Below, one piece after another: positions 41,068-45,581 of a DNA stretch of 64,000 nucleotides. The notes beneath the pieces are model-generated. The model had not been told where the DNA came from. It saw nothing but the letters and a program-made list of their open reading frames with translations, and made no database searches. The stretch spans positions 1 through 64,000 of the forward strand of contig NZ_LN908974.1 in the NCBI RefSeq assembly GCF_001486165.1, in the 5' to 3' direction. Within the stretch, counting starts at the first letter, position 1. Every line of letters starts with the position of its first letter. Position numbers and translations under genes: made by a program. This DNA comes from Bittarella massiliensis (ex Durand et al. 2017). GTDB lineage: Bacteria; Bacillota; Clostridia; Oscillospirales; Ruminococcaceae.

Positions 41068-41940
41068 TTATTCGGCAACTTTTTTGTCGCCTTTATGGCC
41101 GCCCTGGCGGCCCCCATCCCGGGCCTTTCCGGCGCGGATGACGGTGACGTCCTCCCTCTGGAAAACCTTGGGGGGCGCGGCTTCATCCTTCTGCAGGCTG
41201 ACCTTCAGCCGCCCGGTGATGACGTTTGCCTCGGTGACCACGCCGGGGCCCTCGGCGGTCTTGACCAGGGAGCCGGGGCGGGGGGTGAGGCGGCCAAACT
41301 CCTCATACCCCTTCTGCTCGTACTTGAGGCAGCACATCAGCCGCCCGCAGGTGCCGGAAATCTTGGTGGGGTTGAGGGAAAGGCCCTGTTCCTTCGCCAT
41401 CTTGATGGAGACCGGCTGGAACTCGCCCAGGAAGGTGGAGCAGCAAAACGGCCGCCCGCAGACCCCCAGGCCCCCCAGCATCTTGCTCTCGTCGCGCACC
41501 CCGATCTGCCGCAGCTCGATGCGGGTGCGAAAGACCGAGGCCAGGTCCTTGACCAACTCGCGGAAGTCGACCCGGCCGTCGGCGGTGAAGTAAAAGAGGA
41601 TCTTGCTGCCGTCAAAGGTGTACTCCACGTCGATGAGCTTCATGTCCAGGTGGAACTTCTCGATTTTTTTCAGACAGACCGCATAGGCCTCTTTTTCCTT
41701 TTTCCGGTTGCGCTCGAGCTTGTCCAGGTCCTCCTGGGTGGCGGCGCGCACCACCTTTTTCAGGGGTTTGACGATGGTGCCGTCGGCCACCTGTCGGTTG
41801 GCCATGGCCACCTGCCCGCACTCGACGCCGCGGGCGGTCTCCACGATCACCCGGGAGCCCTTGGGCATCTGCACCCCGTCGGGGTCGAAATAGTATACTT
41901 TGCCCACGTTTTTAAAACGCACGCCAATTACTTCTGCCAT
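41068..41940 (-). CDS. ricT: PSP1-domain protein RicT (YaaT)
   Basis: A 290-residue protein with the PSP1 domain. Its conserved cysteine groups are GVCGRPFCCSTFLGEF and GTCGRLMCCLKYE, with the run IGVRDESKMLGGLG between. In Bacillus RicT with RicA and RicF forms an Fe-S complex that supports mRNA maturation by RNase Y and development. The C-terminal tail is basic and Gly-rich (GGRQGGHKGDKK). ATG at 41940, 7 bp after the holB stop. RicA and RicF genes are not in the window. Confidence 0.95.
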   Translation of the reverse strand: MAEVIGVRFKNVGKVYYFDPDGVQMPKGSRVIVETARGVECGQVAMANRQVADGTIVKPLKKVVRAATQEDLDKLERNRKKEKEAYAVCLKKIEKFHLDMKLIDVEYTFDGSKILFYFTADGRVDFRELVKDLASVFRTRIELRQIGVRDESKMLGGLGVCGRPFCCSTFLGEFQPVSIKMAKEQGLSLNPTKISGTCGRLMCCLKYEQKGYEEFGRLTPRPGSLVKTAEGPGVVTEANVITGRLKVSLQKDEAAPPKVFQREDVTVIRAGKARDGGRQGGHKGDKKVAE

Positions 41941-41947
41941 CTTGCAA

Positions 41948-42949
41948 TCACTGCCCTCCTTCGTGTGCCGCCCGGGCCAGCCGGTCGCTGAGACTGGCCT
42001 GCAGAAGCGACAAGTTGCAGTTTCGCTGTAAGGAGACCCTGCCCCGGGCGATTTCCCGGTAGAGGGCCTCGGTGTTCAGGTGAACGATCTCCCCGTCCGC
42101 CTTCATCCGCAGGGGGAAGGGGGGGACTTTGCCCAAAGCCAAGCGCTGACAGTAGGGCAGCAGCTGGGTCAGCTCTTCGAGCAGGGCGCCCATCTCGTCC
42201 CGGTTTTTGGGGCGGTAAAGGGCGGCCGCCACCGCCGACAGGCGGCGCTGGGCCAGCGCCCCCAGCAGATCGAGGGCCGCCTGCACCTTTGCCTGCAGGG
42301 CCGGCCCCTCCTCCTCGCTCAAATAGCGGGCGACCGAGCCGATGGCCCCGCCGAAGAGGTGGGCGGCAAAGGCGGTCCCCCCGCCGCCCTGGCCCAGCCC
42401 GGCAAAGTGCTCGATGCACTCCTCGGGCGAGGGGGGGAGGATGGAGAAACAAATCACCCGGGAGAGGACGGTGGGCAGCAGGGTCTGCCGGCTCTCGGCG
42501 GTGAGGAGGAAGAGGGCGTGTTCCGGCGGCTCTTCCAGCACCTTGAGCAGGGCGTTCTGGGCCTGGGGGGTCATCTCCCCCGCGCCCCCGATGAGGATGA
42601 TCTTCTTCTCCCCCTCGTTGGGGCGGAGGTAGATGTCCTCGATGATGGCGCGCACCTCGTCCACCGAGATGCTGCTGCGCTCCCCCGAGGTGACCACCCG
42701 CAGGTCGGGGTGGCTCCCCTCCTCCACCTGGCGGCGGATCCGTTCCGCCTGTTCGGCCGGTTGGCCCTGGCAGAGGACCTGGGCGGCAAACAAAACAGCA
42801 AGGGTGTATGTACCGCACCCTTGCTGGCCCTCAAAAAGCATGGCATGGGGCAAACGCCGCGCGTCGATCATGGCGCGCAGCGTTTGCAAAACCAGGGGAT
42901 TGCCCTTAAATTCGGATGTAAAATCAGTACTTTTCAAATCTGGAGACAT
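41948..42949 (-). CDS. holB: DNA polymerase III delta' subunit
   Basis: A 333-residue AAA+ clamp-loader subunit. It has RLPHAMLFEG, a P-loop-like GQQGCGTYTLA in which the usual GKT lysine is absent, the SISVDEVRAI segment, IILIGGAGEMTPQAQNALLKVLEEPP and FLLTAESRQTLLPTVLSR. An inactive P-loop is normal for some delta' subunits. The zinc module usually found before HPDL is reduced to one cysteine here. ATG at 42949 overlaps the darA end by 26 bp; no SD is evident, so coupling is likely. Confidence 0.93.
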   Translation of the reverse strand: MSPDLKSTDFTSEFKGNPLVLQTLRAMIDARRLPHAMLFEGQQGCGTYTLAVLFAAQVLCQGQPAEQAERIRRQVEEGSHPDLRVVTSGERSSISVDEVRAIIEDIYLRPNEGEKKIILIGGAGEMTPQAQNALLKVLEEPPEHALFLLTAESRQTLLPTVLSRVICFSILPPSPEECIEHFAGLGQGGGGTAFAAHLFGGAIGSVARYLSEEEGPALQAKVQAALDLLGALAQRRLSAVAAALYRPKNRDEMGALLEELTQLLPYCQRLALGKVPPFPLRMKADGEIVHLNTEALYREIARGRVSLQRNCNLSLLQASLSDRLARAAHEGGQ

Positions 42950-43247
42950 CGGTCACAAAGATGGTGGCGCCGCCGACGGTCACCTCGATGGGGTAGGCAG
43001 AGGACAGCCCCGCGCCATAGGCGATGGAAGAGGGGACGATCTGGGTGCGGCGCTTGCTGTTCTCCTCGATGATGCCCAGCACCTGCTCGACCTTTTCGTC
43101 GTCTGTACCGATGATGAAGGTGGTGTTGCCCGCCAGCAGGAAGCCGCCGGTGGTGGCGAGTTTGGTGACCGAGAACTTCTCCTTGGTCAATGCGCTTTGG
43201 ACCGCGCTGGAATCGTCTTTGTTTACGATAGCAAATATCAGTTTCAC
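42924..43247 (-). CDS. darA: cyclic di-AMP receptor protein DarA
   Basis: A 107-residue PII-like protein. It begins MKLIFAIVNKDD and has KLATTGGFLLAGNTTFIIGTDDEKVEQVL and a C-terminal GGATIFVTDVSRFEKY, diagnostic of DarA/PstA trimers that bind c-di-AMP. GTG at 43247 with AAAGGAGGG; the longer in-frame open region upstream is not coding. It begins a cluster darA-holB-ricT-fdx-trmN6-rsmI, as in Bacillus without yaaR. A TAGAAT at about 43308-43303 may be its -10 box. Confidence 0.95.
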   Translation of the reverse strand: MKLIFAIVNKDDSSAVQSALTKEKFSVTKLATTGGFLLAGNTTFIIGTDDEKVEQVLGIIEENSKRRTQIVPSSIAYGAGLSSAYPIEVTVGGATIFVTDVSRFEKY

Positions 43248-43463
43248 GATATGGCCCTCCTTTAACTGGGTGATAAAAGGTGCTTCCTTTGGTATCTCCA
43301 TTCTACCATCATCCGCTGCAAAAGGCCATAGGTTTTTGTCAGAAATGCAAAAATTCTTCGCCCGTACGGCCCCTCTTTTTGCCGGGTCGGTGCGCGCCCA
43401 CCTTGACAGGGGCGGGGAAGGAAGCCATCTCCTCTTGAAAGGGGTAAAATTCCATTTGCGCGC

Positions 43464-43504
43464 AAAAAAGGCCGGCAGAGAGGGGAACTCTCTGCCGGCC
43501 TTTT
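43464..43504. terminator. terminator after the racemase-like gene
   Basis: A 16-bp stem (AAAAGGCCGGCAGAGA/TCTCTGCCGGCCTTTT). The 43248-43463 stretch holds the darA promoter region and no gene. Confidence 0.9.
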
Positions 43505-43515
43505 GGCCGCTTTCA

Positions 43516-44613
43516 TCAGACGTAGGAACGGCGGACTGACCCGTCCACCGAGGAGGGGACGGTGTCGAAGGAGACGATGTCCCCGGGCGCGCACTCCACC
43601 TTGGTGACATCCACCATGGTGGACTCGTAATCCACATAGCCCAGGATGCGGGCGGGGCGGCCCTTGACGTCACAGGTGAGCCGCTTCTGGCGGGAGACCC
43701 GGCGGATGGCCGCCCGCAGAGCCGAGAAGAAGCCCCGCCCGGTGAGGAGGGTGCGGGCGTTTTCGGCGGTGAGTCCGTCGGCCAGACCGGCGGGCACCAG
43801 GGCGATCTTGGTGGGCCGCTTGGTGCGGTAGGTGCGGCCATAGCCCACGTGGTAGCCGGCGGGCACCCAGCGCACGTCGCAGACCTCGCTGCACAGCCGC
43901 CCCACCTTTTTAAAGCCCCAGCGGTCCTTCACCCCGCTCAGCCGCCCCATGAGGGCGCTGCCACAGCGCACCGCATCCAGCCGCAGCCAGGGGTAGAGCA
44001 GGGCGGGCAGGGTGCCAGCGGCGTGCACCACCCCGTAGGAGATCCCCTCCCGCCGCAAGGCGGTGAGCATCTCCTTGAGGGTCTCGTACTGCCGCCGCAC
44101 CTGCTTTTCCTTTTTGCACTCGCTGCCGGAGATGTGTGCGTAGACCCCGGTGAGTACCAGGTTGTCCAGGTACTTGGCGGCCTGCACCGCCTTGCTCACC
44201 TCTTCGGGCAAAAAGCCGAAGCGGCCGTTGCCGGTGTCGAACTTGAAGTGGATGCGCACCTTTTTGCCTGCCTTGCCGGCAATCCCCGAGAGGACCACGG
44301 CGCTGTCGTAGGAGCCGACGGTGGCCACGATGTCGTGGCGGACGATCTCCTCGGCCGCGGCCTCGGTGGAATAGGGAGTGAGCAGCAGCACATCCAGCCC
44401 GGCGATGGCATTTTTCACCCGCACCGCCTCCTCCAGCCGGGAGACGGCCACCAGCCGGATCCCCTCGGCAAAGAGGAGCTTGGCCATCTGGGTGTCCCCT
44501 GCGCCGTAGGCGTTGCCCGAGAGCACCGGGATCACCGCCGCGCGCCCCACCGCTTTTTGAAAGGTGTGCAGGTTGTGCAGCACCCGGTCGGTCTGCACCA
44601 TCAGCGTCGTCAT
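43516..44613 (-). CDS. alanine racemase-fold protein lacking the PLP lysine
   Basis: A 365-residue protein aligned over its whole length to fold-type III alanine racemases. It has HFKFDTGNGRFGF, GVYAHISGSE, VHAAGTLPALLYP, VRCGSALMG, and the C-terminal VGYGRTY and PAGLADGL. The active-site peptide, normally VVKANAYGHG, reads VLSGNAYGAG: the Schiff-base lysine is Ser (near residue 32) and the His is Ala. The neighbouring Tyr and the C-terminal GYG tyrosine are kept. It should not racemise alanine. It may be a regulatory or substrate-binding relative. ATG at 44613 with AAGGGGG. Single gene with a terminator. Confidence 0.9.
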   Translation of the reverse strand: MTTLMVQTDRVLHNLHTFQKAVGRAAVIPVLSGNAYGAGDTQMAKLLFAEGIRLVAVSRLEEAVRVKNAIAGLDVLLLTPYSTEAAAEEIVRHDIVATVGSYDSAVVLSGIAGKAGKKVRIHFKFDTGNGRFGFLPEEVSKAVQAAKYLDNLVLTGVYAHISGSECKKEKQVRRQYETLKEMLTALRREGISYGVVHAAGTLPALLYPWLRLDAVRCGSALMGRLSGVKDRWGFKKVGRLCSEVCDVRWVPAGYHVGYGRTYRTKRPTKIALVPAGLADGLTAENARTLLTGRGFFSALRAAIRRVSRQKRLTCDVKGRPARILGYVDYESTMVDVTKVECAPGDIVSFDTVPSSVDGSVRRSYV

Positions 44614-44691
44614 GGCCCGTTTCCCCCTTCTGTCGGCCCGCCGCGGGCCGCATTCCGTTCAAGGCGATTATACCACCCGACCCAAACCCCG

Positions 44692-45531
44692 TCAATTCGA
44701 CGGTCCGCCCTCTCCCCTTCCGTGCTGCAGGTCCCAGTTGCGCTCCAGCGGGCGGGGACCGCGAAAGCCAAAGGCCCGCCCCTTGCAGAGGGGGCGGATC
44801 TCCTCCCGGCTCACACGGGGGAGGCAGTCCTCCAAAAAGGGGGCGAGAAAGGTCTCCTCCGCCCGGGCGTTGAGGGGGCAGGACAGCTGGCACTGGTCGC
44901 ACCCCCATAGGAGGGGGCTCTCCTTCACCAGCGCCGCTTCCGCCGGGGTCAACTCCCCCTTTTTCTGGCTGATCGCCGACAGGCAGTTTGCCGCCTCCAC
45001 CCGGCCGCCCGCCAGACAGCCGCCGGGGCAGGCGCGGCTGCAGCGCCCGCAGTGGAGGCAGCCGCCCCCCTCGGGGCCGCTGCGGGGCGGCAGGGGGAGG
45101 GTGGTGACGATCTCCCCCAAAAAGACATAGCTGCCCCAGCGGGGGGTGATGAGCAGGCCGTTGTCCCCCCGCACCCCCAGGCCGCAGCCGGCAGCCAGCC
45201 CCACCTCGTCAAAGGGGGAGGCGTCCACAAAGGGGAGGGAGACGCCCCCCCAGCGCGCGGTGAGGCGGTCGCAGAGCGCCTGGAGAAGGGAGAAGCAGAC
45301 CCTGTGATAGTCGGCCACCGCCGCGTAACAGGAGAGGTTGCCCCCAAAGGCGGCCTCCACCTTGTAGGGGAAGGCGAAGATCGCCAGAGCGTCGGCCTCC
45401 TCAGGGATGAGGGAGGCCCGGCGGCAGGGCAGTTCCGGGCGCACCAGTTCGGGGCGGTAGGGCAGCACGCCCCAGGGCAGCCGCTCCAGCCCGGCTTCCT
45501 CTAAAAGCCAAGAAATTGCCGTTTCCAACAC
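44692..45531 (-). CDS. QueG-like epoxyqueuosine reductase/iron-sulfur protein
   Basis: A 279-residue protein. It has two iron-sulfur motifs, CLHCGRCSRACPGGC (C-x2-C-x2-C-x3-CP) and CDQCQLSCPLN, and the DUF1730-type N-terminal half (FDEVGLAAGCGLGVRGDNGLLI) that binds cobalamin in QueG. QueG reduces epoxyqueuosine in wobble-base tRNA; this short clostridial form lacks the HEAT-repeat tail. GTG at 45531 with AAAGGGGGG. An upstream TTG overlaps the -10 box and is excluded. Cobalamin need is of interest because the cbiK gene nearby is broken. Confidence 0.8.
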   Translation of the reverse strand: MLETAISWLLEEAGLERLPWGVLPYRPELVRPELPCRRASLIPEEADALAIFAFPYKVEAAFGGNLSCYAAVADYHRVCFSLLQALCDRLTARWGGVSLPFVDASPFDEVGLAAGCGLGVRGDNGLLITPRWGSYVFLGEIVTTLPLPPRSGPEGGGCLHCGRCSRACPGGCLAGGRVEAANCLSAISQKKGELTPAEAALVKESPLLWGCDQCQLSCPLNARAEETFLAPFLEDCLPRVSREEIRPLCKGRAFGFRGPRPLERNWDLQHGRGEGGPSN

Positions 45532-45551
45532 CGTTCCCCCCTTTCTCCACA

Positions 45552-45581
45552 ATTATACATCGGGTAATTCCACCGTTTCAA
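45552..45581 (-). promoter_or_regulatory. promoter of the QueG-like gene
   Basis: Minus strand TTGAAA at 45581-45576, an 18-bp spacer and TATAAT at 45557-45552. The leader would be only about 13 nt. DnaA-box-like repeats start 49 bp upstream. Confidence 0.75.

Follow-up and report, generated by a model that had tools for sequence, protein, structure and literature searches.

A strongly constrained alanine racemase paralogue without the Schiff-base lysine in Bittarella massiliensis

Can a protein with the length and domains of an alanine racemase (Alr), but with serine in place of the lysine that forms the Schiff base with pyridoxal phosphate (PLP), still be a racemase, and if it cannot, what has it become? 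The question is raised by a gene, here called alrP, in the window, that is, the whole stretch of 64,000 nucleotides of Bittarella massiliensis DNA (contig NZ_LN908974.1) that was analysed.

43516..44613, minus strand: alrP, encoding a lysine-less alanine racemase paralogue of 365 aa (open reading frame, domain matches and model)

A preliminary description of the locus had reported a full-length, in-frame protein, and this was borne out: the frame opens with ATG, runs for 365 aa without an internal stop and matches both Alr domains, the N-terminal PLP barrel (PF01168, 145.7 bits) and the C-terminal beta domain (PF00842, 56.9 bits). The top PDB sequence relatives are alanine racemases (4y2w, E 1.6e-38). 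An AlphaFold2 model built from a five-sequence alignment (mean pLDDT 76.9; below 50 at residues 33–35, 277–312 and 351–365) aligns with Alr and VanT structures along almost its whole length at a TM score of about 0.7, which predicts an Alr fold. The fold and domain order are thus those of Alr (TIGR00492; PF01168 and PF00842; PDB 4y2w, 1sft). The serine racemase VanT (NF033131, PDB 4ecl) is both the second-best NCBIfam profile and the second-best PDB fold match, but at 162.1 bits AlrP falls far short of the 460 bits required for VanT. The lysine is retained in VanT homologues.

A public-genome scan with alrP returned three loci, in B. massiliensis GGCC_0305 (printed identity 100%), in Neobittarella massiliensis (71%) and in a Patescibacteria metagenome-assembled genome (25%). 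The GGCC_0305 contig is 93–94% identical to the window in nucleotides and its AlrP protein differs at one residue; GGCC_0305 is therefore either another strain or a closely related species. A phage origin of alrP was set aside, as one scan of viral contigs gave only relatives of 24–27% identity, distant Alr-like genes found on eight contigs (L311–L318).

Residues 30–39 of AlrP read VLSGNAYGAG. The state of the pocket residues, placed by alignment and codon, is as follows, with B. stearothermophilus Alr numbering in brackets.

44518..44520, minus strand: Ser32, codon TCG, where Alr has the PLP Schiff-base lysine (Lys39)
44506..44508, minus strand: Tyr36 (Y43), kept
44242..44244, minus strand: Lys124 (K129), kept
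44221..44223, minus strand: Arg131 (R136), kept
44134..44136, minus strand: His160 (H166), kept
44011..44016, minus strand: Gly200-Thr201 in place of N203-S204; Asn-Ser is kept in Neobittarella
43966..43968, minus strand: Arg216 (R219), kept
43840..43842, minus strand: Tyr258 (Y265, in VGYG), kept

The roles of single residues are known from work on B. stearothermophilus Alr, in which R219 faces the PLP ring nitrogen and Y265 is the other catalytic base. The preliminary description was right that the lysine has been replaced by serine and that the nearby tyrosine and that of the GYG motif are retained. Other Alr sites are altered in the alignment: D313 is Glu, R290 is Ala, M312 is Tyr, Y284 is Leu and the Y354 column is empty. 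In comparison with Alr, then, AlrP shares the equivalents of Tyr43, Lys129, Arg136, His166, Arg219 and Tyr265, but is without the PLP lysine and without those of D313, R290, N203, S204 and Y354.

A sequencing error at Ser32 was rejected. The same TCG codon is present in GGCC_0305, and Neobittarella has serine encoded by TCC; the two nearest lysine-bearing relatives (G346 and G304) use AAG and AAA, and at least two base changes separate TCG or TCC from a lysine codon. The preliminary description had also raised the possibility that the lysine is supplied from another position. The sole candidate that we saw, Lys124, aligns with K129, which normal Alr has in addition to Lys39, and the alignment has no gap around position 39. 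A normal racemase, using a displaced lysine or hidden by a misread codon, could point to the retention of Lys124 in the pocket region and to the acceptance of AlrP by the NCBI alr model TIGR00492, at 169.5 bits against a cut-off of 168; serine in two genera with different codons, the ungapped alignment and the equivalence of Lys124 with K129 make it very improbable. As read from its sequence, AlrP has no means of forming the internal aldimine on which normal racemisation depends. Because Bittarella keeps the six pocket residues listed above, from Tyr43 to Tyr265, non-covalent binding of PLP or of a PLP–amino acid adduct would be possible.

AlrP passes the TIGR00492 cut-off by 1.5 bits and the Neobittarella copy by 0.4 bits (168.4 bits). 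Because both pass this equivalog cut-off, a standard pipeline would be expected to label both proteins alanine racemase. The cut-off was passed by none of four lysine-less proteins scanned from another family, f14, to which we return below.

The search for a second, intact alr that the preliminary description had proposed was successful: a gene on a separate contig of the same genome (C8) encodes an Alr with the motif VVKADAYGHG. A second additional PF01168 protein, a 270-residue open frame on contig C9, is presumably of the YggS type. An intact alr is also present in Neobittarella, and because both genomes have one, the supply of D-alanine need not depend on alrP. That AlrP is not a normal racemase, as had been proposed, thus holds as very likely, given the missing lysine, the second intact alr and the constraint on the protein described below.

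Where does such a protein come from? Few full-length relatives emerged when 297 genomes of the family were searched, but profiles built from them served for searches of 394 genomes of the order, 250 of family f14, 391 of the class and 149 of the phylum, the phylum matches being weaker. The genomes were even draws from larger groups and the counts cover the matches listed; most of the strong matches listed were used as loci (for the class, 30 of about 42). Against a 40-row subfamily profile, 254 loci scored at least 314 bits and 28 other Alr-like loci at most 252, some of the scored rows having also built the profile. The 28 comprise 27 loci from the family search or from the same genome and one from Patescibacteria. 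With alrP, and with same-locus second copies and the GGCC_0305 copy left out, the 254 loci give 255 subfamily proteins. AlrP matches the subfamily profile at 449.9 bits over positions 1–363, being itself a row of that profile. One further class-search match (L307, G986:C1:799541-800431) has an in-frame TAG.

Two features mark the subfamily: the C-terminal domain carries about 24 inserted residues, and the C-terminus is shortened, without the final Alr stretch that holds Tyr354. The Y354 column is empty in 255 of 255 rows, and AlrP has both marks, neither of which is found in Alr.

43690..43761, minus strand: approximate place of the subfamily-marking insertion of about 24 residues (alignments; low-confidence and partly helical in the model)

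Members of this subfamily are usually encoded directly downstream of femX, a FemAB-type gene, and occur in Clostridia and in other classes of the phylum. By insertion, C-terminus and full-length profile match, AlrP is a derived member of it. Four phylum-level relatives from other families (L319–L322), outside the 255 proteins, all have the insertion, the lysine and a FemX homologue on the locus; because all four share these, the femX–alr gene pair looks old.

Comparison with the subfamily alters one point of the preliminary description, which had listed a change of His to Ala in the motif beside the loss of lysine. Ala does stand at that position, but the change is not linked to lysine loss, as none of the 255 subfamily proteins has His there; they have L, M, A, F, I, V, C or T. 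His is found in 27 of the 28 other Alr-like rows and in two of the four phylum-level relatives.

The lysine itself is variable within the subfamily. Position 39 is Lys in 175 of the 255 proteins, Ser in 45, Thr in 31, Ala in two, Met in one and Asn in one, so that 80 proteins, AlrP included, are lysine-less; all 28 other Alr-like rows have Lys. femX was found directly upstream on the same strand for 152 of the 175 lysine-bearing copies as compared with none of the 80 lysine-less ones; in one more lysine-bearing copy FemX differs in place or spacing. AlrP thus departs from most of the subfamily in having neither the lysine (175/255) nor femX directly upstream (152/255). In these counts most loci include some 1.5 kb of flank on either side, fewer than 700 bases were available upstream for six of the 80 lysine-less copies and for three of the 22 lysine-bearing copies without femX found, and alrP was scored as having none from its own gene order.

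The femX-linked copies have both catalytic bases, with Lys39, Tyr265 and Arg219 each present in 152 of 152, and with Lys39, Tyr43, Arg136, His166, Ser204, Arg219 and Tyr265 all kept in 144. The racemase activity of the lysine-bearing members is putative. Among the 80 lysine-less copies, Tyr265 is kept in nine, His166 in five, Tyr43 in 22, Arg136 in 28, Arg219 in 65 and Ser204 in 77. The 22 lysine-bearing copies for which no femX was found upstream (three on cut-off contigs) keep Tyr265 in 15 cases. Because these 22 copies exist, femX loss is not always accompanied by lysine loss; in our sample, lysine loss was seen only in copies without femX found upstream. Six copies from a further family, f2 (L124, L128, L130, L131, L132 and L145), have the lysine and no femX, and their Tyr265 is replaced by Thr in four and by Ser in one, with a gap in the last. 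These f2 copies resemble an intermediate stage in the loss of the active site. In six f14 genomes (G863, G820, G669, G709, G719 and G825), the loci taken include one lysine-bearing and one lysine-less copy, and none of the six lysine-bearing copies was scored with femX directly upstream in the available flank.

A whole-genome search with one FemX query (E up to 0.001) gave no match in eight of eight f14 genomes with lysine-less copies or in two of two f2 genomes. Bittarella and Neobittarella each have two FemX matches elsewhere in the genome, 40–42% identical.

In trees built with the active-site columns removed, Bittarella and Neobittarella group with G346 and G304 (support 100/99), both of which have the lysine and femX, while the f14 lysine-less clade groups with the f2 copies that have the lysine but no femX (94/96, not starred). 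The 73-row tree requires three changes at the lysine, one of them owed to a single f14 row (L270), a lysine-bearing protein inside the lysine-less clade that is without Arg136, His166, Arg219 and Tyr265 and would be either a leftover or a reversal. Without L270 two changes are needed, and a single change sufficed in 0% of 200 bootstrap trees. A single clade of all 21 lysine-less rows was rejected (p-AU 0.0005, L270 left out). Lysine loss thus has at least two origins, one in Bittarella and Neobittarella and one in a large clade of f14. The preliminary description had suggested looking for one lysine-less clade with constrained dN/dS; the constraint is there, as set out below, but the clades are two.

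Naive chances of the association between lysine loss and femX absence were 0.04 by branch length and 0.013 by branch count; of three independent pairs, too few to give that comparison power, one behaved as expected and two showed no difference. Because there are just two clear origins of lysine loss, the link can be called suggestive.

The neighbourhood of alrP bears on what became of femX at this locus. The flanking genes are listed below, with two candidate expression signals.

44692..45552, minus strand: queG-like 4Fe-4S protein, upstream (Fer4_16 over its cut-off; QueG_DUF1730 at 22.8 bits, under its cut-off of 25.1)
42924..43247, minus strand: cyclic-di-AMP receptor, yaaQ type, downstream (domain match to PF06153)
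41948..42949, minus strand: holB, DNA polymerase III delta' type, downstream, a syntenic anchor (PF13177 match and synteny)
41068..41940, minus strand: yaaT, PSP1 family, downstream, a syntenic anchor (PF04468 match and synteny)
44667..44695, minus strand: promoter-like site TTGACG-17-TATAAT, 11/12 consensus matches, with TG before the -10 (extended)
43458..43512, minus strand: 17-pair hairpin followed by a U run, terminator-like by eye (-38.3 kcal/mol, z -6.6)

The flanking genes are shared with G346, in which the order is queG (in two pieces)–femX–alrP–holB–yaaT; Bittarella and Neobittarella have queG–alrP–holB–yaaT. The short flanks of the 152 femX-linked loci contain holB (44 loci), yaaQ (29) and yaaT (24) downstream and queG (five) upstream. 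Because these four genes also flank femX-linked loci, Bittarella retains a known femX–alrP setting minus femX. The lysine-less f14 copies lie in another genomic setting. In the flanks of the 79 lysine-less loci (Neobittarella included), the genes downstream include mutL (39 loci) and dtd (23), and miaB lies divergently upstream of 35. In eight f14 loci (L147, L148, L152, L153, L155–L157 and L161), the lysine-less copy is followed directly by a gene that we take to be D-aminoacyl-tRNA deacylase (dtd)-like.

The promoter-like site lies between queG and alrP, where G346 carries femX. A promoter scan found two sites in the alrP region as compared with 0.3 in shuffled sequence; a similar site before the Neobittarella copy matches at 10/12, one being found there against 0.8 in shuffles. 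The terminator-like hairpin directly follows the alrP stop and precedes the cyclic-di-AMP receptor gene. A pattern scan of the region did not list it, and a fold search after the Neobittarella copy gave no such hairpin (z 0.29). Promoter and terminator are putative, since consensus matches and folds are not proof of either.

Has alrP been kept by selection since the lysine was lost? Between the window and GGCC_0305, alrP has 50 base differences, 49 of them synonymous, the sole replacement being at residue 136. The resulting dN/dS (NG86) of 0.0064 is the lowest of 11 neighbourhood genes, alrP included; for the same strain pair the next lowest are yaaT at 0.014 and rsmI at 0.047 (196 codons only), and abcB is the highest at 0.19. 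Between Bittarella and Neobittarella, AlrP is 71% identical with a dN/dS of 0.28; its identity exceeds that of four of six neighbours, which have dN/dS values of 0.11–0.58 (holB over 210 codons only). Median dN/dS was 0.195 for f14 lysine-less pairs (22 usable of 24) and 0.127 for lysine-bearing pairs (31 usable of 37). We conclude from these substitution patterns that alrP is under strong purifying selection after lysine loss, and is not decaying; AlrP combines the loss of a catalytic residue with purifying selection on its gene, as is expected of a pseudoenzyme.

The same data bear on the idea that alrP is a remnant of a lost femX–alrP pair on its way to becoming a pseudogene. The vacant femX slot and the long branch to Bittarella and Neobittarella (0.59 and 0.70 in two trees) are what such decay might leave behind. 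Nevertheless, the gene is full length in three genomes, two genera have serine under different codons, a promoter-like site precedes it in both and dN/dS is low for the strain pair as well as for the f14 pairs, so that the chance of this reading is close to negligible.

We favour, with some confidence, the view that AlrP is a constrained pseudo-racemase, derived from a femX-linked racemase-like enzyme, whose fold has been reused as a non-catalytic protein that binds a ligand or a partner. Its ancestor would have been encoded beside a FemX-type peptidoglycan aminoacyl-transferase. Once femX had left the operon, the racemase reaction may no longer have been needed; the Schiff-base lysine could then have been lost, while the fold persisted in a non-catalytic protein driven by a promoter of its own. 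AlrP would most probably hold a small ligand in the former pocket without a covalent bond, either PLP or a PLP–amino acid adduct, and/or use the Alr dimer surface to pair with another protein, and so would be a sensor or partner and not an enzyme. Non-covalent PLP binding, D-Ala sensing and regulation, as put forward in the preliminary description, are candidate roles; our analysis identified neither a ligand or partner of AlrP nor a regulatory domain.

The second lysine-less clade limits how far this picture can be extended. The median conservation percentile of 17 active-site columns is 0.93 in lysine-bearing copies as against 0.57 in f14 lysine-less ones, which keep many frame glycines. Because the f14 clade has lost most of the PLP pocket, PLP binding as a function common to both clades is argued against, and because the f14 proteins have lost more, the two groups need not share a function. 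Some charged positions have gained conservation in the f14 lysine-less proteins (AlrP positions 48, 73, 83, 120 and 141).

These gains, with the extreme constraint on alrP and the retained pocket residues in Bittarella, would also fit a protein with new chemistry, one that binds PLP or a PLP–substrate adduct without the lysine, or that turns over another phosphate-bearing substrate by means of Tyr258 and Ser32. Lysine-free Alr mutants can be chemically rescued. Without the lysine, however, a cofactor can be neither held nor released by transimination, most pocket residues are gone from the f14 relatives, and AlrP shares only Lys141 of the five f14 charged positions; we regard such chemistry as improbable.

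AlrP might instead act in the manner of a prozyme, forming heterodimers with the cell's canonical Alr, to which it would lend Tyr258 and which it would regulate. In Alr, two subunits contribute to each active site, and Bittarella keeps Tyr258, the C-terminal domain and a canonical Alr. Fold-type III decarboxylases have a barrel fold related to that of Alr, and to our knowledge there is no antizyme-type partner for AlrP. The prozyme idea has a parallel in the antizyme inhibitors, enzyme homologues like AlrP, which PMC6738921 describes as ornithine decarboxylase (ODC) homologues that are devoid of activity and kept for a regulatory role. These inactive decarboxylase homologues are, in contrast, eukaryotic, belong to a different family and bind antizyme. 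The other residues that would act in trans are altered in AlrP (M312 to Tyr, D313 to Glu, Y284 to Leu), the other lysine-less clade is mostly without Tyr265, and AlrP is just 30% identical to the canonical copy, all of which makes a role of this kind unlikely.

With the lysine lost, the sequence kept nearly unchanged by selection and a normal alr elsewhere in the genome, AlrP, as the favoured pseudo-racemase, probably does a different job from a racemase. Among the open-licence matches listed, taken by title and the start of the abstract, there was no paper on femX-linked or lysine-less Alr, and seemingly none on a femX–alr pair of the L319–L322 type; nor did the same portion of that literature give a name for the subfamily.

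Automatic annotation would call AlrP an alanine racemase although it is without the residue that the reaction needs. Because the supply of D-alanine is targeted by drugs and is central to wall synthesis, false racemase calls of this kind mislead metabolic models and essentiality predictions. The link to femX suggests that the paralogues may serve in building the cross-bridge and that dropping FemX may free the racemase for another role, and the nearest lysine-bearing relatives make, with AlrP, a ready pair of presumably active and inactive proteins for comparison. More tentatively, gut Clostridia may on at least two occasions have converted a FemX-paired racemase into a conserved non-enzyme after the pair broke, giving a new functional class, a proposal that we put forward as possible rather than probable. 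If it is true, this class of Alr-fold proteins would read out an amino acid or a PLP adduct, or steer a partner in wall synthesis, instead of making D-amino acids, and the intact femX–alrP pairs would point to a racemase, not yet described, that acts together with FemX when cross-bridges are built.
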